DNA of 64,000 nt, taken from contig NZ_CP122961.1 in NCBI RefSeq assembly GCF_029854215.1, positions 1,736,001 through 1,800,000 of the forward strand. The letters run 5' to 3'. The stretch comes from Halomonas alkaliantarctica (GTDB taxonomy: Bacteria; Pseudomonadota; Gammaproteobacteria; Pseudomonadales; Halomonadaceae). Position numbers and translations under genes: made by a program. The notes below the pieces were generated by a model, which was not told the DNA's origin, searched no databases, and saw only the letters and a program-made list of their open reading frames with translations. Below, in pieces: positions 18,460 through 35,690 of the stretch (position 1 is the stretch's first letter; each line of letters opens with the position of its first letter).

Positions 18460-19086
18460 ATGATTACGCTTTGGGGCCGCAACAACTCCACCAACGTCAA
18501 AAAAGTGCGCTGGGCGCTAGAAGAGCTGGAACTGCCTTTTGAGCAAATCCAGGCCGGTCTTCAGCACGGGGTTAACAACACTCCGGACTACCTGGCCATG
18601 AACCCCAATGGCCTGGTGCCGCTACTTAAAGACGATGCCACTGATAGTCTATTGTGGGAGTCCAACGCCATTATTCGCTACTTGGCCGCCCAGTATGGCC
18701 AGAGCAAACTATGGATTGAAGAACCCGCCAAGCGCGCGCAAATGGAAAAGTGGATGGAGTGGGCCAACAGTACACTGACACCAAATCATCGCAAAATATT
18801 GATGGGGTTTGTCAGAACACCGCCCGAAAAGCGCGATAACGCCGCCATCGAAGCAGCGGTTAAAGAGAGCGAAGCACTCTTTGCAATAATGGATAACGCG
18901 CTGGCAGATCAGGCCTGGTTTTCCGGCGAGGCCTTTGGGCTGGCCGACATCGCCCTCGCGCCTTTCGTTTACAACATGCTCAACAGCGGCCTAACCTGGC
19001 AAACCCATTCCAACCTGGAACGCTGGTACCAACAGCTTACCGAAATACCCAGCTTCCAAAAGGTCGTGATGATCCCGGTGACTTAA
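18460..19086 (+). CDS. Glutathione S-transferase family protein
   Basis: 208 residues with the two GST domains. The thioredoxin-like N-terminal domain reads [21 protein letters not shown] and contains the cis-Pro and glutathione-binding segment NGLVPLLKD, then [11 protein letters not shown], where Glu-Ser contact the gamma-glutamyl group. The C-terminal helical domain contains [20 protein letters not shown], the N-capping box. The physiological substrate is unknown. An AAAGGA box precedes the ATG. Its stop codon overlaps the convergent reductase stop within TTAA. Confidence 0.9.
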
Positions 19087-20012
19087 CGGTTAAAACTCTC
19101 TTCCAACGTCGCTAGCTCATCATCCAGCCCCCGCAGCTCCTCGCACGCTAACCCGTGGCGCTGGGCGCTCTCAATCAATGGCCCTAAAATCGCCCCGCGC
19201 TCGGTGGGGCGTCTGGCCTCCACGTCCTGCAACATCGAGGCCTTGTTGTTCGCGGTGTTCTCCACTACTTGCCAAACCAACGCCAGCCATGCTTCTTCTC
19301 CCTGACCGATGTTGGGTGGCGTAATACCCTCGGCAAGCATAATCGCTGCAACTTCCTTTACCACGGCTATCACACGCCCCGCATAAGCTTCACCGCGTAG
19401 CTCACCATTACGAACGCCATGTAACGCCACCAGTGGGTTAATCGCCGCGTTCACCGCCAGCTTTTGCCACAGGCGTTGGCGAATATCAGCCACCTGGGTG
19501 GCGGCAAGCCCAGCTTGGGTTAATGTCTGCGCCAGTGCTTCTGCCAACTCGTCGTGCTGGTTATTCAAATCGCCGACAAAGGTATGTCCGCGCCCGGCAT
19601 GTACCACGCTATCATCACCGCTTAGGTAAGCCCCATCAGTCGTTGTTGCGCATAACACCGGCCCTGGCCACGTCTGGGTAATACGCGGCTGCGCCAAAAA
19701 ACCGTTTTGCCACAGCACCAGCGGAGTAGAGGAGGGAATCGCGTTAGCAATACCTTCAAGCGCCGCCTCAGCGGCCATTGCTTTAGTGGTGATATGCAAA
19801 AAGGCAGGGGGCTCATGCGTTTCAGAAGCCAGTTGGGCAACTGTAAGTATATTAAGAAACTGCGCCCGCAGTTCACCTTCGGGCGTGGTGAGTGCTTGCC
19901 GCTCTGGTAGCGCTCGGCGACCTATTAGCGTGGTGGCTGCTAGGGGTGAGAGCGAATGGGCCAATAGGCGGCCAATGGCACCAGGGCCGAGTATCCAATG
20001 GGAAGCCATCAT
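19083..20012 (-). CDS. Ketopantoate reductase-family protein (PanE-like)
   Basis: 309-residue NADPH-dependent 2-dehydropantoate 2-reductase family member. The N-terminal dinucleotide fold is [20 protein letters not shown], a GxGAIG variant; the catalytic-lysine helix is [24 protein letters not shown]. Family members reduce 2-dehydropantoate for coenzyme A synthesis, but many paralogues have other substrates, so the symbol panE is withheld. Translation starts at ATG 20012 with GGAG upstream. A fragment resembling its first 28 codons occurs 0.8 kb away at 20800. Confidence 0.85.
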
Positions 20013-20310
20013 TGAGTGCGTTACTCCTCAGTGGTATTGGCACCAAGCATACCGTGTTCACTTATGCTGGGTAAGATGACAAAGGCCAGTAGAACGCTTT
20101 GCTACTTTGCTGTCTCGCAAAAAAGGGAGGTATGCTTTTTTTCTAAAAGTGAGCCTGCATTAAAACTGAAAGGCTAAAGCGGAAAGTAAAAGTTTAAAGT
20201 TGCTATAGGTGATGAAGTTGTTCGCTTATTAACATCGGTGCCTAGACAATGTCGAGTTTTCGATATTAGGCTTGGCAGGGCACCGTAGTACTTGATTAGC
20301 TAGGCGTTGA

Positions 20311-20427
20311 TTAATTTCCTAGCACATTGGTCTCGCTTTTCTTTGTTGATTTTGCAGCTTTCTTTTCTTTTGCCGTTAAAAGTGGTTTCTTCTTGGTATT
20401 CTTTTTACTGTCTTGCCCTTTGCTCAT
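20311..20427 (-). CDS. Small lysine-rich protein
   Basis: A 38-residue, strongly basic protein beginning MSKGQDSKKNTKKKPLLTAK and ending in SKKSETNVLGN. I chose the ATG at 20427 because AAGGTAA lies just upstream; the frame is open further (to 20517) but that extension has no ribosome site and a different composition. Similar short K-rich proteins are widespread in proteobacteria without known function, as I recall. Nucleic-acid binding is plausible from charge alone. Confidence 0.55.
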   Translation of the reverse strand: MSKGQDSKKNTKKKPLLTAKEKKAAKSTKKSETNVLGN

Positions 20428-20527
20428 GATATTTACCTTTATTAATCCACAGATTGACCAAAATGGAGCTGCATAAAGCCAGCTTTTGAGAGTTGATATT
20501 AGCGCACAAATCGTCACTGCGCATTGT

Positions 20528-20799
20528 TATAATGATTACCCTACTAAAAATAAATGAAAGAAATTGTTGAACCGGAAAGTTACCCGGCCACATCAGAAAT
20601 GCTGATCGATAAAGTTCGATTCTGCGCATAAAAAAGTCTGGACATAAATTGCTTTCAAGTAAGAGTAGGTTGTTGATTTTCCAAATGAATAATCACTTTT
20701 TTCTCATAGCCAAATGTTAGTGAATCTCAACCGAAAAGTAGTGCATAAGGTTTAGAGCTATTTCATGAGCATGGTATGAGCAATTCGAATATTTTGCGT
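20528..20799. other. Intergenic stretch without recognised genes
   Basis: AT-rich spacer between the small lysine-rich gene and the panE fragment. I see no convincing coding frame, RNA gene or strong hairpin. Confidence 0.5.
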
Positions 20800-20877
20800 G
20801 GTAAGCAGTAGTGCCGAAAGCGAATACGCAGGCAAGCGGCCAATGGCGCCAGGGGCGGTAATCCAGTGTGAGGCCAT
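20800..20877 (-). pseudogene. Fragment of a second PanE-like gene (5' end only)
   Basis: On the minus strand the first codons read MASHWITAPGAIGRLPAYSL, nearly the start of the intact reductase at 19083-20012 ([20 protein letters not shown]). DNA similarity extends over roughly 75 bases (for example GCGGCCAATGGC in both) and then stops. The rest of the gene is absent, so this is a relic of a duplicated or diverged copy. Confidence 0.75.
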
Positions 20878-21008
20878 TATGAGCGTTTTGATCTTGGTGA
20901 TGGCAAAAAAACAGAATGATAGAAACCTTATTAAACGGCTAGTGGAATACTCCACCCTTCGTAAAGCTTATGCTAACTTAGCGTTAACCACTTGCTAGGA
21001 AGCGCCCC

Positions 21009-22279: not shown

Positions 22280-22395
22280 AGGGCTGCCACCCTCACGGTT
22301 TGGCTTAGCCAGAAGGCACACTAGCTGCCCCTTAAGCGGTGGCTGAATTCGCTGCTCGATAAACGTAACTCATCAGAACATAAACGGAAATAACC

Positions 22396-22887
22396 ATGAT
22401 CAGAGATGCCGTAAAGGGCGATTCAGAAGCCATAGCGCATATTTATAATAACTACATTGAAAATACCGCTATCTCATTCGAAGAAACGCCAGTATCAGGT
22501 AGCGATATCGAGCGTAGGCTAGAGAGTGTTCAGGGAGCGGGTTTACCCTGGATGGTGGCAATGGAAGATGATGCTGTGGTGGGTTATGCCTACGCGACTA
22601 AATGGAAGGAGAGAAGCGCCTACCGATTTTCAGTCGAAGCCAGCGTTTATCTTTCCAACCAGATGCGCGGTAGGGGCTTAGGCGCAAAACTGTATGAAAC
22701 TATCTTTGCCAAGCTCAAAGAGGGCGGGATTCATACGGTGATTGGCGGCATTACGCTTCCCAATCCCGCCAGTGTCGCACTTCATGAAAAAATGGGCATG
22801 AGAAAAGTAGCCCATTTTGAAAAGGTAGGCTTCAAGTTCGACCAGTGGCATGACGTAGGCTACTGGCAGCTAAACTTGAATAGCTGA
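22396..22887 (+). CDS. GNAT acetyltransferase, phosphinothricin/methionine sulfoximine type
   Basis: 163-residue GNAT enzyme. MIRDAVKGDSEAIAHIYNNY and the following SFEETPVS resemble the PAT/Bar/YncA subgroup, which acetylates L-phosphinothricin, methionine sulfoximine or related amino acids. The acetyl-CoA loop is NQMRGRGLGAKLYE and the late motif is PNPASVALHEKMGMRKVAHF. ATG 22396 has a weak GGAAA site. Stand-alone gene; the spacer downstream is almost 0.5 kb and ends in the cassette region. Confidence 0.88.
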   Translation: MIRDAVKGDSEAIAHIYNNYIENTAISFEETPVSGSDIERRLESVQGAGLPWMVAMEDDAVVGYAYATKWKERSAYRFSVEASVYLSNQMRGRGLGAKLYETIFAKLKEGGIHTVIGGITLPNPASVALHEKMGMRKVAHFEKVGFKFDQWHDVGYWQLNLNS

Positions 22888-23273
22888 TCGTAACTCACGC
22901 CTGTCTATGGGGCTCTCAAACATCGGCTCTGAAAACACCCCGCGTTCCCAGCCCGACTTGTGCGTTGGGGGCAATGGTGAGAAAGCCGTTTTCTGGGCGA
23001 CTAATTACTAATGACGGCAGTCAGCATAGTCTGGTAGCGTTGAGGCTAAGAAAATTTGGCCAATTACATGCTGATTGAATAAGACTAAACGCAGTCTATT
23101 ACTGCTATGAGGCGCCTTGCTAGGAGCCCGCTTTCGACCTAAAGCGGCCCTTCCGGCGAAAGCGGCATGCTGTTTCAGATGTTATACAGCCAGCACAATA
23201 ATCTATGCTATGCTGACTTTTTATACTTAATTTATTTTAATTTCAATGGGATAGATCATGAATAAAGGGCTGT
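22888..23273. other. Intergenic stretch upstream of the cassette-like region
   Basis: No convincing frame. Contains a short inverted sequence around 23131-23165 (CGCTTTCGACCTAAAGCGG) reminiscent of degenerate intergenic repeats seen elsewhere in this window near 30375, 33793 and 35484 (GGCCGAT-containing). No promoter I would defend. Confidence 0.45.
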
Positions 23274-23313
23274 ATAACCTGAATGAACGCGCCGGCGGGT
23301 TCATTCAGGTTAT
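23274..23313. repeat. Long perfect inverted repeat (15-bp arms)
   Basis: Arms ATAACCTGAATGAAC and GTTCATTCAGGTTAT enclose a 10-base GC-only centre (GCGCCGGCGG). It lies 48 bases upstream of the nuclease-like pseudogene. There is no T run. The outer ends AAC/GTT resemble integron core half-sites, so it may mark the upstream edge of the cassette, but it lacks the bulges of a real attC. Confidence 0.8.
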
Positions 23314-23360
23314 GTAGAGGGGGGTATAATCATGGTTATATTCATTAAACAGAGTCATAT

Positions 23361-24301
23361 ATGTCCATTCTAGATTTTAAAGAGATTCCAATGCCTCATA
23401 AAAGTGGAGGAGAGCAAAATAAGTTTGAATTATTCGCCAGAGACTTTTTGAAGTAATTGGGTATGAAATTCACTCAACTCCTGGAAGAGGTGCTGACGGA
23501 GATAAAGATTTAATTTTTAATCGAGACTCGAAAAGGTATTGCTAATAATACAGAAGTTAGATGGTTAGTGAGCTGTAAGCATAAAGCACACCCATGTTCA
23601 TCTGTGTCAAAAACTAATGAACCTGAAATATCTGATTCATTGAGAGCACACAAATGTACAGGATTCATAGGCTTTTACTCTACGCTACCATCATCAGGTC
23701 TAGTTACAAAAGTTGAAAGCATTCAAGAAATCGAACATCAGTTTTTGACTCGTCAAAAATAGAGCAAGCTCTACTGACGAATCCTAAATGTCTCGATTTA
23801 GCAAAGAGATATTTTCCCGAATCATTCAAAAGTTGGGCAGATGAAAATCCAAAGCCCGCACAAATTTTTTCAGATCATGAATCATTTAAGTGCCACCTTT
23901 GTAATTCTGTTTTGGATTTTGATAATCGAAGAATTGTTACTTCATGGGGGAAGTATGAAGAAACAGATGAAGGTTTAGTTAAGAAAATTAGAAATCAATA
24001 TGTGTGTTGTGGTGGTGATTGTGACCGCACTTTATCCAAACGTTTTTTCACTGATGGATATGTAGACGCTTGGGCTGAACTTAGAGACTACTTTACTCCC
24101 ACCTTGTATTTGAAAGCGGTTATGGCCTTTTGTAACGAACTGAATGACCCTAAAATCCAATATAGTGAAGAGATATTCGACCAAGAAAAAGAGATTTTAA
24201 TTAAAGCTTATCCTTATGTGTGTCGTAATTTAACTCAACGCGAAGTGGAAAATGTAAGGAGTTTGGCAATGTTGCCCCAATTCTTGGGAGGGCTAGGCTA
24301 A
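23361..24301 (+). pseudogene. Frameshifted restriction-endonuclease-like (Mrr-type) gene in a cassette
   Basis: Reading across three single-base shifts gives one continuous protein of about 313 residues. The shifts are at a T5 run (23445-23449, one T short), an A4 run (23531-23534, one A too many) and a T5 run (23742-23746, one T short). The start is MSILDFKEIPMPHKSGGEQ. The N-terminal part has a GADGDKDLIF block followed by VRWLVSCKHKAH, the D...xxK layout of Mrr-like PD-(D/E)xK nucleases, then a CTGFIGFYSTLPSSGL segment. The C-terminal part has KCHLCNS and CCGGDC, a possible zinc site. DNA is much more AT rich than its neighbours. It ends 5 bases before an attC-like site. Decay is likely, but homopolymer sequencing error would also explain all three shifts. 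Confidence 0.8.
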
Positions 24302-24306
24302 CGTGA

Positions 24307-24405
24307 ATATAACAAGTCGTTTAAAAGGACAAAAAATAGTTGGCTTTTGCTCCTTAGTCGATAATTTTAGCCAACAATTTTTTGCCTCTTAATGTGGCGT
24401 TAGGT
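24307..24405 (+). repeat. attC-like integron recombination site
   Basis: The element starts ATAACAAGTCGTTTAAAAGG and ends CCTCTTAATGTGGCGTTAGGT. GTTAGGT (24399-24405) fits the core GTTRRRY and pairs through GTT with AAC at 24311. The outer stem TTAAAAGG/CCTCTTAA has one mismatch. The inner arms 24331-24345 (AAAAAATAGTTGGCT) and 24369-24383 (AGCCAACAATTTTTT) pair at 14 of 15 positions. Position directly after a stop codon, size of 99 bp and imperfect hairpin are all as in cassette attC sites. No integrase gene is present in the window. Confidence 0.82.
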
Positions 24406-24842
24406 TTGCAGTAGGCTGATGACAGGCGAAGGTTCTCTGAGGTGCATGTCGCGCAGAGTGTGCACGAACCGCAGACGCTGAGGATGGCGCTTCAGATTCC
24501 CGGCTTCATGTCGCGGGGCTGTTCTCAAAGGTAAACGGCGGCTAGACTTTGAAACTCCGGTACGAATATTCGAGGGCGGAATTGTATACTCAAGGTTTAT
24601 CGAAAATAGCTTATTCAAAACATCCGGCTCAAACCCTGAATGCGATCATCCTTAAAGCCACTTGTAGAAACGAGCCCCTCTTAAACAATTTGGCTGAAGT
24701 CAGCTTGAAAACTAGATTGAACTGTAGGTTTCAAGCAGGCGCACTGCGACTATACAAAGCTAATTGAGGCACTAACCAAAAATTAGGATGAAGTGTACTT
24801 TCTTTCGGTTGGCAATATTAATGACAACCAATCTTGTCGTTA
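24406..24842. other. Intergenic stretch after the attC-like site
   Basis: Two short open frames exist (24400-24618 minus, 24549-24767 plus), but neither has a ribosome site or recognisable product. GC content changes abruptly near 24405, consistent with the cassette edge. Nothing else recognised. Confidence 0.5.
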
Positions 24843-25331
24843 CTAAAGAGAAACACTTGCTAATTTTTCGTATCGGAAGATGCACTCCATCTCGCAAGTA
24901 CCATTTGCAGGCAGTCCTGCGACACCAATGGCGGTACGAACGAACTGGCAATCGCTCCCTAAGACTTCTTCGCATAGGGTCGAAGCAGCATCCAGGGCTC
25001 TCGAGTGCGCTGTAAATGCGTCCGAAGCATTCAGAAAACCTCGCATCTGTAATAGCCCTACGATTCTACCTCGCTCGGGAAGGACCGAAGCCGCCGCGAC
25101 TAGGCAGCGACCGGCGCATAATTCTGCTGCCCGTATCGCGCTGGCGATTTCTTTATCATCGACTAGGCGTCCGCTCAATACTCCACCGTCAAATCGCGAC
25201 AGCTGTCCAGCAGTATAGATAAGGTCGCCGGAAATTTGTGCTGGCATGTAGCGTCCCTGAGCAACTGGCACACACATGTCGTATCCTAGCTCTCTTAGTC
25301 GTTGTATCATCTGTTCGCGTGACACTTTCAT
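24843..25331 (-). CDS. RidA/YjgF-family protein
   Basis: 162 residues from ATG 25331 (MKVSREQMIQRLREL); a TTG 45 bases upstream would extend it into the phzF-like gene. The family core is visible: IYTAGQLSRFDGGVLSG, then CAGRCLVAAASVLPERGRIVGLLQMRGFLN, and the C-terminal VRTAIGVAGLPANGTCEMECIF. It belongs to the longer RidA subgroup (about 150-160 residues) usually fused to catabolic operons rather than the 128-residue housekeeping RidA. Family members hydrolyse reactive enamine/imine intermediates or act as deaminases. It is the last gene of the TRAP transporter operon, 11 bases after the phzF-like stop. Confidence 0.88.
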   Translation of the reverse strand: MKVSREQMIQRLRELGYDMCVPVAQGRYMPAQISGDLIYTAGQLSRFDGGVLSGRLVDDKEIASAIRAAELCAGRCLVAAASVLPERGRIVGLLQMRGFLNASDAFTAHSRALDAASTLCEEVLGSDCQFVRTAIGVAGLPANGTCEMECIFRYEKLASVSL

Positions 25332-25342
25332 ATTTGCGGCGC

Positions 25343-26185
25343 CTAGTCTAGAGTGCAAATCCCTGAGATCCAGCAAGTCTTTTCACTTGCGTTTATGTAT
25401 ACCCCTATTTCGGAGGGGCGTCCCATCGTTTCGCCTTGCCGGACCCGCACGAGACCAGAGTCAGCCAGCAAGCTGCTGCTTTGACTTAGGGCACAGGCAA
25501 GAGCAGCTGCTGCAATACCGGTCGCTGCATCTTCGGGATATCCGGAATTGTTGGGAAACTGTCGCGCATGGAAAAGCCATGGAGCATCGCCCTTGGCAAA
25601 TGGATAGAGCCCCGTCGTTTCCAGCTTCTGGCAAAGAGGTCCAATTGCAGCCCAGTCTGGCTTTAGGTTCTGCAAGTCTGCGACCGATTTCAGCTCCACG
25701 ACGGTTTTCACGCGACTGGTCTTCGCATTCGCGACGAAACCGATGGTGCCTGGGGCTATCTGTAGCACTCTGGCTATGTCTTGTAGGTTCGTGTCAGACA
25801 GAACTTGAACCTCTCCCCAAGGTTGCGAGATTGAAATTGCTTCTGGAGCGCGTGAAACCTTGGCCGTGACTAAGCCAGAGGGCGTCTCGATTCTAAGCAC
25901 TTCCACTCTGGGTAGGCGTCCAATTTCGCGCAGGATCCAAAGCGCGCCGATAGTCGCGTGACCGCACATGGACATCTCATGTTCAGGAACAAAGAAGCGC
26001 AGGCGAAGATGGTTTTCGGAGCTTTCTGGGCGTAGGACATATGCGCTCTCGAAGCCTTGGGCCTTCGTCTCTGCAAGCATCAAAGCAGAGGACATGGAGT
26101 CTGCATCAAGCCATATCGGTGCCGGATTACCACCTCCTGAACCAGCAGTAAAAACGGACGGCAGATACATGGTGGGCGAGGTCAT
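25343..26185 (-). CDS. PhzF-family isomerase/epimerase-like protein
   Basis: 280 residues with the diaminopimelate-epimerase-like double fold of the PhzF family. Visible motifs are VFTAGSGGGNPAPIWLDADS, the glutamate-bearing GFESAYVLRP (general base position), FFVPEHEMSMCGHATIGALWIL and GYPEDAATGIAAAALACAL in the second half. Known PhzF relatives isomerise dihydro-hydroxyanthranilate, or dehydrate/epimerise hydroxyproline-like amino acids. Its ATG shares one base with the TRAP permease stop (TAATG), implying translational coupling, so its substrate is probably what the transporter imports. Confidence 0.88.
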   Translation of the reverse strand: MTSPTMYLPSVFTAGSGGGNPAPIWLDADSMSSALMLAETKAQGFESAYVLRPESSENHLRLRFFVPEHEMSMCGHATIGALWILREIGRLPRVEVLRIETPSGLVTAKVSRAPEAISISQPWGEVQVLSDTNLQDIARVLQIAPGTIGFVANAKTSRVKTVVELKSVADLQNLKPDWAAIGPLCQKLETTGLYPFAKGDAPWLFHARQFPNNSGYPEDAATGIAAAALACALSQSSSLLADSGLVRVRQGETMGRPSEIGVYINASEKTCWISGICTLD

Positions 26186-28056
26186 TATTTAATCCTTTTC
26201 GTTGCGTTGAAGGAAGTTATGTCACGTTGTGCCAGGCGGTTATGGATTAGCACGAGACAAACGACAGCAACACCGGCCAACTGTGCCGAGGGTTCAGGCC
26301 AGAGAATGCAGCCGGCGCACAGCGCTAGAACAGTGCGGGACGTTGCTCCCAACCGGCCGAAGGCTTGGCCGGTTCCGACCATCGCAATGGTGGCTAGGGC
26401 AGCCAGTCCGCTAGCAGTTCCTATGAGCGCTTGGTTTGCGCCTTGATCGAAAAGCAAGCCATGGTAGACGAACAGTAGCGGCATAATGTAAAGACCCTTG
26501 CCCATAAGCATGGCCTTTAAACCTGTCCTTGACGGACTTCCTCCCGATATGCTGGCGGCAGCATAGGCGGCGAGGCAGACCGGGGGCGTCAGCAGCGAAT
26601 CCTGGCTAAGCCAGAACATGGCCATATGTGCGGCGACGGGCGAGACTCCGAGCGAGATTAGCGCCTGTGCCCCAAAGCTTGCCACGATGATGTAGGAAGC
26701 CGTAACCGGCAATCCCATACCTAGGAACAGCGAGATGACGGCAAGAAGCGCGATAATCAATAGGGAATTGGCCTGCCCGAGCATATTCAGCGACTGTGCC
26801 ATCGCCACGACCAGACCGGAGGTCTCTACACAGGTTACGATGATACCCGCGCAGATCAAGACAGCGGCAGTCGGCAGCAATGTTCGAAACGTCTCACGGC
26901 AAATACTTGGGATCTGTTTCAACCCAATACGGTGTGGCCCGAACCAGCTACATACGACAACTGCTGCGCAAGCCCATCCGGCCGCATAGACTGGAGAGTA
27001 GCTGGCAATCAGCATACCGATCAGCAGCAGTATTGGCCCGAGAAATGACAACCCCTCGGTAATGTTCATTCGAGGTGCATCTCCATCAGGCTGTGCTTGT
27101 CGATCCAGCAGGCCTTCGCGTTTCAGTTCGAGATGGACTGTGAAGGATATCGATAGGAAATAAAGCAGTGCAGGTATGATCGCGATCATCACTAGTTCGC
27201 TGTAGGGCACCCCTGTCCAATCCGCCATAATGAAGATGCCAGCACCCATTACCGGCGGTATGAGTTGAGATCCGGTCGATGCGGCAGCCTCCACTGCACC
27301 TGCGCTCTCTTTCGAAAGCCCGGAGCGTTTCATAATCGGGATTGTCAGCGTTCCTGTTCCGGCGACATTGGCGACGGCGCTTCCGCTAACAGTGCCCATA
27401 ATTGCGCTGGAGAGCACAGCTACATGCGCTGATCCTCCAGGAATGCGCCGCATCAGGCGGATGGCACCCGAAATGATGAACTGGGTCGCACCCGCGGAAC
27501 GCATCAGGGTACTGAGCAGCACGAACATGAAGATGATCGTGGCCGAAATAGTGGTTGTTGATCCTAGCAGTGCCCCGTCCTGCCAGAACATACGATAGCT
27601 CATTCGGTAGGGAGTCAGACCGCTGAAGAAGAACATCCCATCGAACAGCCGTCCCAGACCTAAGACATAGATCCCCGTAACGGTGGCGATTAGAGGGATT
27701 ACCCAGCCTGCAAGGTAATAGGCCAAAGCTAGCACTGATGCAACAGCCGTAGCGGCCATGACCTGATCCATTAGGTTCAGGCCGTACCTAGCGAAGACTT
27801 GGTCGACATTGAGCAGGAAATAGACACCTGTCACAGCTCCCGCGATCGCCGCAAGCAACAACAAGATTCCGGCGATACGGGAGCGGCTTTCCAGCGCGAG
27901 CTGGCCAAAACCTAGCGCGAGGATTGTCGACAGGTGCCAGGCATTAATCGTGGAATCGGATGTTGGGATGAAGATAATGAGTGTGAGGTGCAGGACCACC
28001 GCGGCGCAGGCTAAGGTCGTCCACACCTTCCGGCCGTATTGGGTGAGGGATATCAT
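26185..28056 (-). CDS. TRAP transporter fused permease (DctQM type)
   Basis: 623-residue inner-membrane protein with many helices. The first ~120 residues correspond to the small DctQ-like part, the rest to DctM, with typical segments SALMGTVSGSAVANVAGTGTLTIP-like (SSAIMGTVSGSAVANVAGTG), MKRSGLSKESAGAVEAAASTG, and GMGLPVTASYIIVASFGAQAL. Fused permeases pair with TAXI binding proteins, which is the next gene upstream. Import is driven by an ion gradient, usually sodium, which would suit a halophile. Substrate unknown, presumably an organic or amino acid acted on by the PhzF and RidA partners. Confidence 0.9.
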   Translation of the reverse strand: MISLTQYGRKVWTTLACAAVVLHLTLIIFIPTSDSTINAWHLSTILALGFGQLALESRSRIAGILLLLAAIAGAVTGVYFLLNVDQVFARYGLNLMDQVMAATAVASVLALAYYLAGWVIPLIATVTGIYVLGLGRLFDGMFFFSGLTPYRMSYRMFWQDGALLGSTTTISATIIFMFVLLSTLMRSAGATQFIISGAIRLMRRIPGGSAHVAVLSSAIMGTVSGSAVANVAGTGTLTIPIMKRSGLSKESAGAVEAAASTGSQLIPPVMGAGIFIMADWTGVPYSELVMIAIIPALLYFLSISFTVHLELKREGLLDRQAQPDGDAPRMNITEGLSFLGPILLLIGMLIASYSPVYAAGWACAAVVVCSWFGPHRIGLKQIPSICRETFRTLLPTAAVLICAGIIVTCVETSGLVVAMAQSLNMLGQANSLLIIALLAVISLFLGMGLPVTASYIIVASFGAQALISLGVSPVAAHMAMFWLSQDSLLTPPVCLAAYAAASISGGSPSRTGLKAMLMGKGLYIMPLLFVYHGLLFDQGANQALIGTASGLAALATIAMVGTGQAFGRLGATSRTVLALCAGCILWPEPSAQLAGVAVVCLVLIHNRLAQRDITSFNATKRIK

Positions 28057-28129
28057 AGGATAAGCTCTTATTGGTATTCGGAGGGGCGACTATCTGTATG
28101 GAGAGGTCGCCTTGGACGTCGTTTAAGGT

Positions 28130-29119
28130 TTAGTTCTGCAGACGATCCGGGATCGTGATGCCTTGTTCTGCGTAGAACCTTTCCGATCCGGGGTGCAGTG
28201 GCACTGGAAGACCGTCAAGCGCTGTATCGAGGCTAATAACCTTGGCGGCGCTGCTAGCAGCGTGAAGCACGTCGAGATTTTCGAATATCGATTTGGTCAT
28301 TGCATAGACCACCTCTTCGGGCACATCGGCATGCACGGCGAGAAAATTCGGTTGCATGATTGTTTGGATCGCCTTGTTCTGATTCGGATATGTCCCCGCC
28401 GGGATCTCGACCCTTGCAAACAGGCCGTCCGTAGCCTCCGATATCTGCTCCACCTGATCATCTGTCACTTCGAGGATGACGGTGTCCTTGGCTGAGGTGG
28501 AAAAGATTTGTGAAACTGCAGGCGTAGGAATGCCACCTGCTGCGCTCATGCCCGCTATTCGCCCGTTCTGGAAAGCTTCCGCCGCGGCGTTGTATTGCAT
28601 GTTAGTAACTGAGAAGGCATTTTCGGGGTCTATGTCGACGGCTTCTAACAACAGTCGGGTTGTACCTTCGGTGCCCGAGTTACGCGGCCCGATCGAGAAG
28701 GCACCCCCGAGCTCCGCCATATCCGACAAGGTGCCGGTTTTAGCGTAGTCCTTGTGGATGACAAACTGGTCGTAATCAGGCCAGAGTGACATGATTGAAC
28801 GCAGTCCCTCGACTGGCGGTCGCCCTTCGCGCAGGCCTATGCCACGGTAGCCGTCTCGTCCGTAGATGCCGAACATGATCGCGACCTGTGCTTCGTCGCG
28901 CGCGATCAACTCAATATTTTCGGCTGATCCACCAGTAGTGATCGGCGACATCCGCACCGACTGATCGGCGAGCTGTTCGGATACAAGCGTGGATAAGGCA
29001 ACACCTACTGGGTAGTAGGTTCCACCAGAAGACCCTGTGGCCAGAGTAAGATTCTGTGCCTCGACATCTACTGCGAAAGATGTGGAAAGCAGGACCGCTG
29101 TTAACGCAAAATATTTCAT
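28130..29119 (-). CDS. TAXI-family TRAP transporter solute-binding protein
   Basis: 329 residues with an N-terminal signal peptide (MKYFALTAVLLSTSFAVDVEA). The mature protein opens LTLATGSSGGTYYPVGVALSTLV, the hallmark of TAXI binding proteins (GGTYYPVG), and continues with IARDEAQVAIMFG and SIGPRNSGTEGTTRLLLEAV. It sits 73 bases before the fused permease and 79 bases after the AraC gene, all on the minus strand. TAXI ligands are poorly known (glutamate/glutamine-like or dicarboxylates), so no specificity is assigned. Confidence 0.92.
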   Translation of the reverse strand: MKYFALTAVLLSTSFAVDVEAQNLTLATGSSGGTYYPVGVALSTLVSEQLADQSVRMSPITTGGSAENIELIARDEAQVAIMFGIYGRDGYRGIGLREGRPPVEGLRSIMSLWPDYDQFVIHKDYAKTGTLSDMAELGGAFSIGPRNSGTEGTTRLLLEAVDIDPENAFSVTNMQYNAAAEAFQNGRIAGMSAAGGIPTPAVSQIFSTSAKDTVILEVTDDQVEQISEATDGLFARVEIPAGTYPNQNKAIQTIMQPNFLAVHADVPEEVVYAMTKSIFENLDVLHAASSAAKVISLDTALDGLPVPLHPGSERFYAEQGITIPDRLQN

Positions 29120-29198
29120 ATAAAGTTCTCTCGGTTATTTGTTTGATTTAGAGAAGACTTTACTAAAATACTTTGGCTTGTGATTTGCTCGGCGGGCC

Positions 29199-30023
29199 TT
29201 AACTTTGTGCCGATCGGGCCATTCGAATTTCACGGGGTGTGCAGCCGAGATGACGTCTGAAAGCGCGCGTGAAACTCGACGCGTTTTCGAAACCTACCTC
29301 AAGCGCGATTAACTGAATTGATAAATCGGTGCTCGATAGCAGTCGCTTTGCTTCCCTAAAGCGCAATTTAAGATGTATTTCTCCGATTGAATACCCAGTG
29401 TGTTCCCGAAAAAGCCGAGTAAGGTGTCTTCGTGAAATCCCTAACTTACTCGATAGCAGATCTAGATCAACGTCCATGCTGAGGTCCTCTGTTAAAGAGT
29501 TAATTACTGCATGAGCGATATGTCGGCCATGCTCAGCAACAAGCGATGTCCCTGTATCTCTAGAAATAATGCTGCGTGCAAGGCAGTCTTGGATCAGGAT
29601 GTCCGCAATATCAGAGCACTTATTTGCCAGGTTACCGGATTTGTTATCCAGGTTACGTTCTAGAACACCGAGAAGTACTGTCGCGTCTTTACTGAGTTGC
29701 CAAACTCCGCTTCTCGTATGTTTGCTTCCTAGACCCGAGTGTTTCAACAGATATTCTTCGAAGTCTTTGTGCAAATAAATTGCAATATGTCGTTGTTTTT
29801 GTGTAATGGACAAAGTTTTGTGGCAGATCCCAGCAGGAATAATAAGAACGTTGCTTTGCATCGTCCAACGGTGAGTATCAAACTCGTCGGCCGCTACTTT
29901 GAATGTGCCCCATGTAGGAAAAAGGAGCATCGTATGGTCCTCATGGCTATGCAGTCCCATCTGGTAACTAGGAATGGTTTCAAGTATCGAGTGAAGCCTC
30001 TCGACGTTGCTGAGATCGACCAT
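29199..30023 (-). CDS. AraC-family transcriptional regulator
   Basis: 274 residues. The N-terminal half is a cupin-like effector domain (YQMGLHSHEDHTMLLFPTWG). The C-terminal ~100 residues hold two helix-turn-helix units: MDVDLDLLSSKLGISRRHLTRLFREHTG and STDLSIQLIALEVGFENASSFTRAFRRHLGCTPREIR. It has AGGAGC before the ATG at 30023. It heads the TRAP/PhzF/RidA genes on the same strand and is the likely local activator. No AraC half-sites could be assigned by eye. Confidence 0.9.
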   Translation of the reverse strand: MVDLSNVERLHSILETIPSYQMGLHSHEDHTMLLFPTWGTFKVAADEFDTHRWTMQSNVLIIPAGICHKTLSITQKQRHIAIYLHKDFEEYLLKHSGLGSKHTRSGVWQLSKDATVLLGVLERNLDNKSGNLANKCSDIADILIQDCLARSIISRDTGTSLVAEHGRHIAHAVINSLTEDLSMDVDLDLLSSKLGISRRHLTRLFREHTGYSIGEIHLKLRFREAKRLLSSTDLSIQLIALEVGFENASSFTRAFRRHLGCTPREIRMARSAQS

Positions 30024-30660
30024 GTGAGCTCCTGACTATTCATTTCAGATATGACTTATATACCTAGGCTTATCCGCATACTCATGCCAAAAGTGGCAGT
30101 ATGCTAAGCCTCGTAAGGGTGTAAAACGATCACATTTACCTTCAGACAATATGCCACGCAGGGCTGCATACACAGCGAATCAAGCGTCATCTCTCAGTTA
30201 TACACCAGTCTGCTTCACTAGGTTCGAAGTCACCGTGAATCGCCCCGAAATTTTAGACAACACCTGGCCTTATGTTTGCAGTGTAAGGGGATCCCCAGAT
30301 TGGTGAATTAAAGTGTTTAAATAAGAATTTTATCTAATCATAAGCCTAAATCAGCTTTAACTAATTGTCTGCTTCTGGCCGATAAGCGACGGCCTGAAAT
30401 AGGTCTTCGTTTATTCTCATCAAACTTCTGTTTGTTCTGCCATCGATAGTGGAAAGGTGAATGACTGAGTGGCAAAGGGTGCCGTTCCTAGGTGTACGAT
30501 AAAGGCACTGTCGACCAACTAAGAAACCATGAGGGAGAGCACACCGATGGCCATGGGCTAGGTTTGGCGCCACAGGGGCAGTCCCAGTGATAGGGGGGAC
30601 ATCTGGGTGTTCACAAAGTCTCCAGGGTATGACAATCCCGGGGATAGTACGTCAAATCAC
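30024..30660. other. Long intergenic stretch, probable gene debris
   Basis: About 640 bases with no defensible gene. A minus-strand frame at 30361-30573 (70 codons) lacks a ribosome site. One copy of a 25-bp repeat, ATCAAACTTCTGTTTGTTCT plus GCCAT, is at 30419-30443 and its partner at 35529. The text around 30374 (CTTCTGGCCGATAAGCGAC) is like other degenerate repeats in the window. Confidence 0.5.
30419..30443 (+). repeat. 25-bp direct repeat, copy 1
   Basis: Identical to 35529-35553 at 24 of 25 bases, same orientation. Each copy is also preceded by a GGCCGAT-containing sequence. The two copies bracket a 5.1-kb segment. Confidence 0.7.
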
Positions 30661-35403: not shown

Positions 35404-35690
35404 GCTTTTATTCCATTGGCGATGACTATGTGTTGAGTTTGGAGACACACACATTCGATAAGCTTTGCAGGATATGTGCGATTTTGGCCGATTTCGACAC
35501 GGACTAACATCGGCCGACTTTTGTCAATATCAAACTTCTGTCTGTTCTGCCATTTGCAGGCGTCATCTACCGTATCGTTCAAAGCACAGACAATCGTGCA
35601 GGAATGCTACGTGGTAAGGGTAGTTTGTGCAGTGGATGGGGAGACTAGCCGACCCTTGCGGGCCGGCTGTGTCGGGGAAGGTCCCTAAGA
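35404..35690. other. Intergenic stretch with repeat copy 2
   Basis: Contains the second 25-bp repeat (35529-35553) and a short inverted sequence TTTTGGCCGAT...ATCGGCCGACTTTT at 35484-35524. No coding frame defended. Confidence 0.5.
35529..35553 (+). repeat. 25-bp direct repeat, copy 2
   Basis: ATCAAACTTCTGTCTGTTCT plus GCCAT, one mismatch to the copy at 30419-30443, same orientation. Confidence 0.7.

Follow-up and report, generated by a model that had tools for sequence, protein, structure and literature searches.

A frame-broken Mrr-type gene cassette joined to a dispersed attI-like platform without an integrase gene in Halomonas alkaliantarctica

The cassette and its broken nuclease gene

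The window (the whole 64,000-nucleotide stretch of chromosome analysed here) contains a single gene cassette that abuts a copy of a dispersed repeat (Table 1). The cassette closes with an attC site, whose R'' box is ATATAAC (24307–24313) and whose R' box is GTTAGGT (24399–24405); bases 24400–24405 of the latter belong to the downstream neighbour, being past the crossover. This site is the sole match in 64 kb of a home-made covariance model, R1 (24.6 bits, E 3.4e-4), whose training set consisted of 21 attCs of related genomes (chosen by eye from 36 strict attCs) with the window attC excluded. Nothing in the window reached the Rfam gathering score. The initial annotation, made from the letters alone, had proposed an attC element here and suggested a covariance search and a fold of the bottom strand as checks: the element came through the former with our home-made model, and the latter gave a long imperfect hairpin. 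At the other boundary, GTTATAT (23335–23341) is complementary to R'' at 7/7 positions. Because R'' exactly complements this heptamer, the cassette runs from crossover to crossover, starting just past the G of GTTATAT and 25 bases upstream of the start codon at 23361, where the annotation had placed its left edge. A boundary picked by eye at GTTATAC (23181) was dropped, as the repeat alignment puts the boundary at 23335.

Table 1 Features of the platform and cassette (window coordinates)
Feature	Position	Strand	Basis or remark
Left terminus of the platform subfamily lacking intI	23128..23181	+	20-copy alignment, consensus, genus copies
attI-like region, ending at crossover G 23335	23182..23335	+	Homology to the DNA between intI and first cassette of true integrons
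Palindrome within the attI-like region	23277..23310	.	12-bp arms 23277–23288 and 23299–23310
TATAAT box just before the crossover	23325..23330	+	43/61 platform copies
Gene cassette, crossover to crossover	23336..24399	+	Start GTTATAT pairs with R'' ATATAAC at every base
Mrr-type nuclease gene with three frame breaks	23361..24301	+	Last open piece 23744–24298
attC	24307..24405	+	Covariance model match, fold, closing rule

The cassette is AT-rich, as the annotation had it: between 23250 and 24499 the GC content of 500-bp windows is 0.34–0.42, compared with about 0.50–0.58 further out. Its cargo had been taken for one nuclease gene read from 23361; the region 23361–24301 is not one open frame, and is read instead as four pieces (23361–23453, 23447–23542, 23514–23759 and 23744–24298), with frame changes at or near T-runs at 23445, 23514 and 23742. 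No piece taken alone has a Pfam match. An intact homologue of 319 residues exists in a congener (genome G021, L049:4320–5279), sharing 50% identity with piece 23514–23759 and 39% with piece 23744–24298. The L049 protein matches Mrr_cat (PF04471) over residues 20–100 (E 3e-7) and has 1316 relatives at E ≤0.001; its gene is immediately preceded by a copy of the repeat that stands left of the window cassette, and its cassette leader differs. Judged by this homologue, the cargo was probably an Mrr-type restriction nuclease and is now, most likely, a pseudogene. The Mrr-like assignment of the annotation is thus supported by the PF04471 match of L049, but the locus holds no intact defence gene: among the Mrr_cat restriction endonucleases, L049 is an intact member whereas the window copy is broken. 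PADLOC assigned no family to L049, to the C-terminal piece in the window or to the cassette gene of locus L095, described below.

All three breaks lie at or near runs of five Ts, which are typical of long-read errors, and the nuclease could on this account be intact and active, its frame broken only by misassembly. Yet the 51 other open reading frames of at least 150 aa in the window, open over 82.5% of it, contain 134 homopolymers of five or more, which makes a general sequencing error unlikely and decay likelier; we consider an intact, active nuclease improbable.

A dispersed attI-like platform

The cassette is preceded by a dispersed repeat of about 200 bp (23135–23335), homologous to the region between intI and attI of true Halomonas and Vreelandella integrons. 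Searching the repeat consensus against intI loci with BLAST gave matches at 9/10, over 98–175 bp and at 63–74% identity, and the window sequence could also be aligned. In genome G024, for example, the attI (C9:274087–274182) lies just upstream of intI at 274313. Since the same DNA separates intI from the first cassette at true integrons, the repeat corresponds to an attI with a promoter-like box minus intI, and by sequence family and G|TT crossover we class it as an attI-like site. The description of the cassette as lying outside any integron platform therefore does not hold; it is joined exactly to a platform copy that has no intI.

The left end of the platform is hairpin-like (CCGCTTT-CGACCT-AAAGCGG) plus flank, and the repeat has a conserved left limit near 23135. 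In an alignment of 20 copies with the window, 19 have their left limit at or near CGACC, the remaining one (L050) comprising the right part alone; most end at TATAATCACTG|TTA, followed by various genes. The crossover reads CACT|GTT in 52/61 copies and CATG|GTT in the window. A search with the pattern AACAAGTCGTTTAAN{30,60}GGCGTT returned zero matches, the window itself included, its gap having been set too short. The TATAAT box is presumed to be part of a predicted cassette promoter, Pc; a sigma-70 scan listed no promoter at the TATAAT of the platform. The palindrome upstream of it was analysed in 50 of 59 distinct rows, nine out-of-register rows being excluded: 93.3% of cells are paired, against at most 45% when the arms are slid, and both sides have changed in 30 cells, where shuffles give 10.5. 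Two other, less clear measures gave five pairs with two-sided change against 3.1 (29 of 500 shuffles) and 15 pair types against 13.5 (88 of 500 shuffles). The palindrome thus appears to have been kept largely by two-sided changes, a pattern that would fit either a protein-binding palindrome or a hairpin. Further left, about 75 bp from the platform, lies a block of some 60 bp (22993–23057) that recurs elsewhere, adjoining platforms at L040, L046, L049, L095 and L097 and occurring also in G014 and G020.

The repeat consensus, whole or in part, is present in 60/82 genus genomes, our own included (E ≤1e-6), and in 89 of 201 genomes of the family, which were sampled from a larger group and comprise those of the genus. 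A strict core pattern, run for exact matches over a collection of 84,980 species, hit 26 stretches, all named Halomonas or Vreelandella, in keeping with the Halomonas-like chromosome that the annotation had recognized. Plasmid and phage records gave no match to the repeat of the window at E ≤1e-5. Copies are dispersed across the genus, with several per genome in some. In other Halomonadaceae genera the left end and the next 100–125 bp match, often without the part holding the attI palindrome, hinting from sequence at older platform subfamilies.

We examined 65 copies at loci selected from the match lists, a sample rather than every match. Within 2.5 kb upstream, 13/65 have an intI match (E ≤1e-20; some are fragments only) and 52/65 have none, a threshold at which very short remnants would escape detection. 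The copies divide into the subfamily of the window (35 copies with conserved ends, intI detected at 0) and right-part-only copies (30, with intI at 13). The 35 subfamily copies come from 21 genomes, 15 of which show no intI at E ≤1e-60; at that threshold intI is found in 21/82 genus genomes, broken genes included.

Most platforms are followed by attC sites, and the layout seen in the window recurs in many relatives. With R1 at E ≤0.1 (training attCs included), an attC lies within 3 kb downstream of 44/52 copies without intI and is absent from the other 8/52; split by group, the counts are 29/35 for the subfamily, 15/17 for other intI-less copies and 9/13 for intI-linked ones. Within 1.8 kb, an attC lies downstream and on the same strand for 47/65 copies, upstream for 1/65 and on the opposite strand for 0/65. 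The raw tally, with 115 attCs downstream (counting no more than four per copy), six upstream and none on the opposite strand, is biased towards downstream by design, because the loci examined hold more downstream than upstream DNA (median 6.0 kb against 2.4 kb). A strict closing rule, under which the first bases of the closing attC must be exactly complementary to those of the cassette, was applied to 61 copies, leaving out the 4/65 without a recognisable GTT. It holds for 36/61 copies and fails for 25/61; permuted starts pass at a mean of 3.2% and a maximum of 8.6% (20 permutations), and the reverse strand at 4/61. This rule replaced a first, looser criterion, which 54/61 copies satisfied but which also accepted 54–69% with permuted starts and 44/61 on the reverse strand.

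Some pieces retain the left part of the platform alone (L131, L132, L100, L134, L138, L139, L140 and others) and break off at or near internal GTTs, at about consensus position 53 or 81. These are possibly alternative insertion points or deletions. As 2/12 left-only copies ending at an internal GTT pass the strict closing rule, the case for cassette insertion there is weak.

Several subfamily loci share a right-end sequence, TTATATCAGAGACGCCTAAAAGGC.GCTCCTGGCCG, after their last attC. Among 113 attC ends, it is present at 10 of the 12 that begin TTATATC or TTATACCA, one of them diverged, and there are three variants in addition. The right-end core (≤3 mismatches) has 59 matches in 36/82 genomes, against 0 for a reversed-pattern control, and 11 of the 25 matches that were fetched stand directly after an attC. 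By eye, the reverse complement of the right end resembles the left end, so that the two look inverted (TTTCGACCCAAAGCGGCC / TTTCGGCCAGGAGCGGCC) and the unit has the appearance of a small element bounded by inverted, hairpin-like termini. Because the left end and, in relatives, the right end are conserved and share this inverted similarity, the platform subfamily has probably spread as a small mobile unit. We infer this mobility rather than observe it, since an empty platform, in which attI would adjoin the right end, turned up in 0 of 82 genomes at ≤1 mismatch, target-site duplications were not evident at the three end pairs inspected, and the window lacks the right end (0 matches). The left-end hairpin is also found at sites that have no platform. 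Tandem platforms are seen at L037:8566–8654 and L039:8530–8560, where a right end is followed by a short stretch and the next left end.

Chromosomal site, integrase genes and origin of the locus

To the left of the platform lies an acetyltransferase gene (22396–22887), which is present without a platform behind it in the five relatives whose DNA beyond this gene was inspected (G017, G008, G005, G003 and G004). G102 has a platform at the same chromosomal place with a different cassette (L095), encoding a 303-residue protein without a Pfam match. The comparison suggested by the annotation, which was to look for an empty site in relatives, thus had a twofold outcome: the site lacks a platform in five relatives but in a sixth is taken by a platform with another cassette. 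In G092, DNA related to 22377–23152 is followed about 1.4 kb further on by a left-only piece. Copies of the platform also lie within about 2 kb of a homologue of gene 19083–20012 in G004, G021, G003, G102, G089, G078 and G101.

A genome search found no integron-type integrase in the window, and the attI-like site there has no intI beside it. The absence of a nearby intI, as annotated, stands: the genome has just one integron-type integrase, some 600 kb distant and with a broken frame (L009:9439–10001 and L010:1–420, corresponding to C1:2359438–2360420), the other matches being generic and found in control genomes too. This broken intI is of another lineage, sharing 45–53% identity with four intact ones. 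It is accompanied by an attI of its own and by one good cassette (attC L009:8079–8150, minus strand, E 1.9e-18), which obeys the exact-complement rule (ACATAAC / GTTATGT).

Taken together, the locus is most probably a decayed single-cassette integron without an integrase, in which a stand-alone attI took up a cassette at G|TT (23335/23336) with IntI acting in trans. The starting point would have been a stand-alone attI with a promoter-like box, 23135–23335, one of the dispersed Halomonas/Vreelandella family, into which one circular gene cassette would have been inserted at G|TT by an attI × attC reaction. The integron integrase responsible may have been encoded at another place in the cell or by an integron formerly resident there; the platform would have supplied expression, and the Mrr-type cassette would have decayed after insertion. 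The donor enzyme was probably either an earlier resident or one that arrived with transferred DNA. It is probably not the present intI, because that gene is broken, stands at 45–53% identity and has an attI and cassette of its own.

The most serious rival holds that complete integrons lost intI on the spot and that the platform never moved without it. The 30 right-part-only copies do form a graded series, with a near full-length intI at four, a shorter piece at nine (L050, L107, L108, L110, L111, L120, L123, L124 and L125) and none at 17; the genome of the window retains a broken intI elsewhere, and broken intI genes are common generally, at over one third according to PMC2426708. What such decay explains poorly is the subfamily: 35 copies are without intI, and those that reach the left limit have one left end at the place where intI would be expected. 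Independent deletions would not give one breakpoint, so the common left end argues against loss in place, and a common right end occurs as well. On balance we think this course of events unlikely, though it remains the alternative to which we give most weight.

Two further explanations detach the repeat from attI, and both fare far worse. IntI could have used a random genomic GTT (attG) next to an unrelated repeat; reactions at attG are known (PMC12901181) and attI-like sites are described as frequent in genomes (PMC10127599), but one copy of the repeat after another stops at the crossover and gives way to various genes, and at true integrons intI is flanked by this very DNA. A chance insertion of this kind is accordingly hardly credible. 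Nor is it at all probable that the repeat is a promoter segment that travels with cassettes. In the copies listed it does immediately precede what looks like the start of a cassette gene. However, it is also fixed beside intI, and the closing R'' pairs with the bases to the right of the repeat rather than with its left end (36/61 copies), so that circular cassettes would exclude it.

Beyond the decayed single-cassette integron itself, we tentatively propose, at somewhat less than even weight, a family-wide reading. Halomonadaceae might carry satellite integrons—small, non-autonomous mobile platforms of ~240 bp, integrase-less and spread over the chromosome, which are filled in trans and provide each cell with numerous separate and expressed docking sites rather than a single array. 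The unit would consist of a hairpin-like left end, an attI with a cassette promoter and a hairpin-like right end.

Known integron systems and surroundings of the locus

Integron theory ties attI to intI, and pairs one platform with one array and a position-dependent promoter. The locus shares with sedentary chromosomal integrons (intI, attI, Pc and attC cassettes) an attI-like site, a TATAAT box, a canonical attC and the G|TT crossover, but differs from them in having no intI in cis and in belonging to a set of dispersed copies, several to a genome in some cases. SALIN is a category named alongside CALIN for attC sites without an integrase. The window resembles both in holding an attC cassette with no integrase nearby, whereas their definitions are without attI and an attI-like platform is attached here; IntegronFinder would probably file the window under CALIN/SALIN. 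PMC7923331 and PMC9668308 give CALIN as attC sites without an integrase.

Integron parts carried by non-autonomous ends are also found in the integron mobilization unit and in MITE-flanked class 1 integrons. Both reportedly carry class 1 integron pieces between two MITE copies. The integron mobilization unit is cited (Poirel 2009) in PMC11616780, and a MITE-flanked class 1 integron, plasmid-borne in that case, appears in PMC3934969; here, by contrast, a chromosomal attI lies between single hairpin-like inverted ends. Delta-attI-type gene cassettes (PMC12901181) likewise place attI copies away from intI, but in these the attI pieces replace attC at the 3' end of cassettes inside class 1/2 integrons, whereas in the window attI is upstream of the cassette and outside integrons. 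Secondary attI-like sites are called frequent in genomes, and are said to recombine, in a passage of PMC10127599 that cites another paper. That frequency makes a solitary attI-like site less surprising; the sites in that passage look scattered, while here ~200 bp of the intI–attI region are repeated with fixed ends and downstream attCs, and the passage does not describe such fixed-end platforms. Among the papers within our scope, which left out most subscription papers, none was recognisable as reporting dispersed attI copies without intI.

If dispersed integrase-less attI sites are real, not all cassettes outside integrons would be off-target accidents, and a genus could keep many first-position cassettes at once, restriction-type nucleases among them. 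They would also offer a testable explanation for part of the genomic loci with attC and no integrase, because the attI of non-clinical integrons may go unsearched: the survey of PMC7923331 searched attI of classes 1–3 only.

The surroundings of the locus show further irregularities. On the left, 20013–21008 is an AT-rich gap, its GC falling as low as 0.37, that contains no open reading frame of 150 aa; within it, 20818–20871 resembles the 5' part of gene 19083–20012, suggesting a partial duplication. On the right, 24406–30346 is unmatched in the relatives' loci compared and is probably a separate insertion; it holds a RidA-like gene (by Pfam) and, by reading, PhzF-like and TRAP-type transporter genes. 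Two short segments beyond it, 30347–30443 and 35509–35571, match DNA near platforms at L033, L034, L038, L042, L045, L102 and L131, and possibly mark an insertion hot spot.
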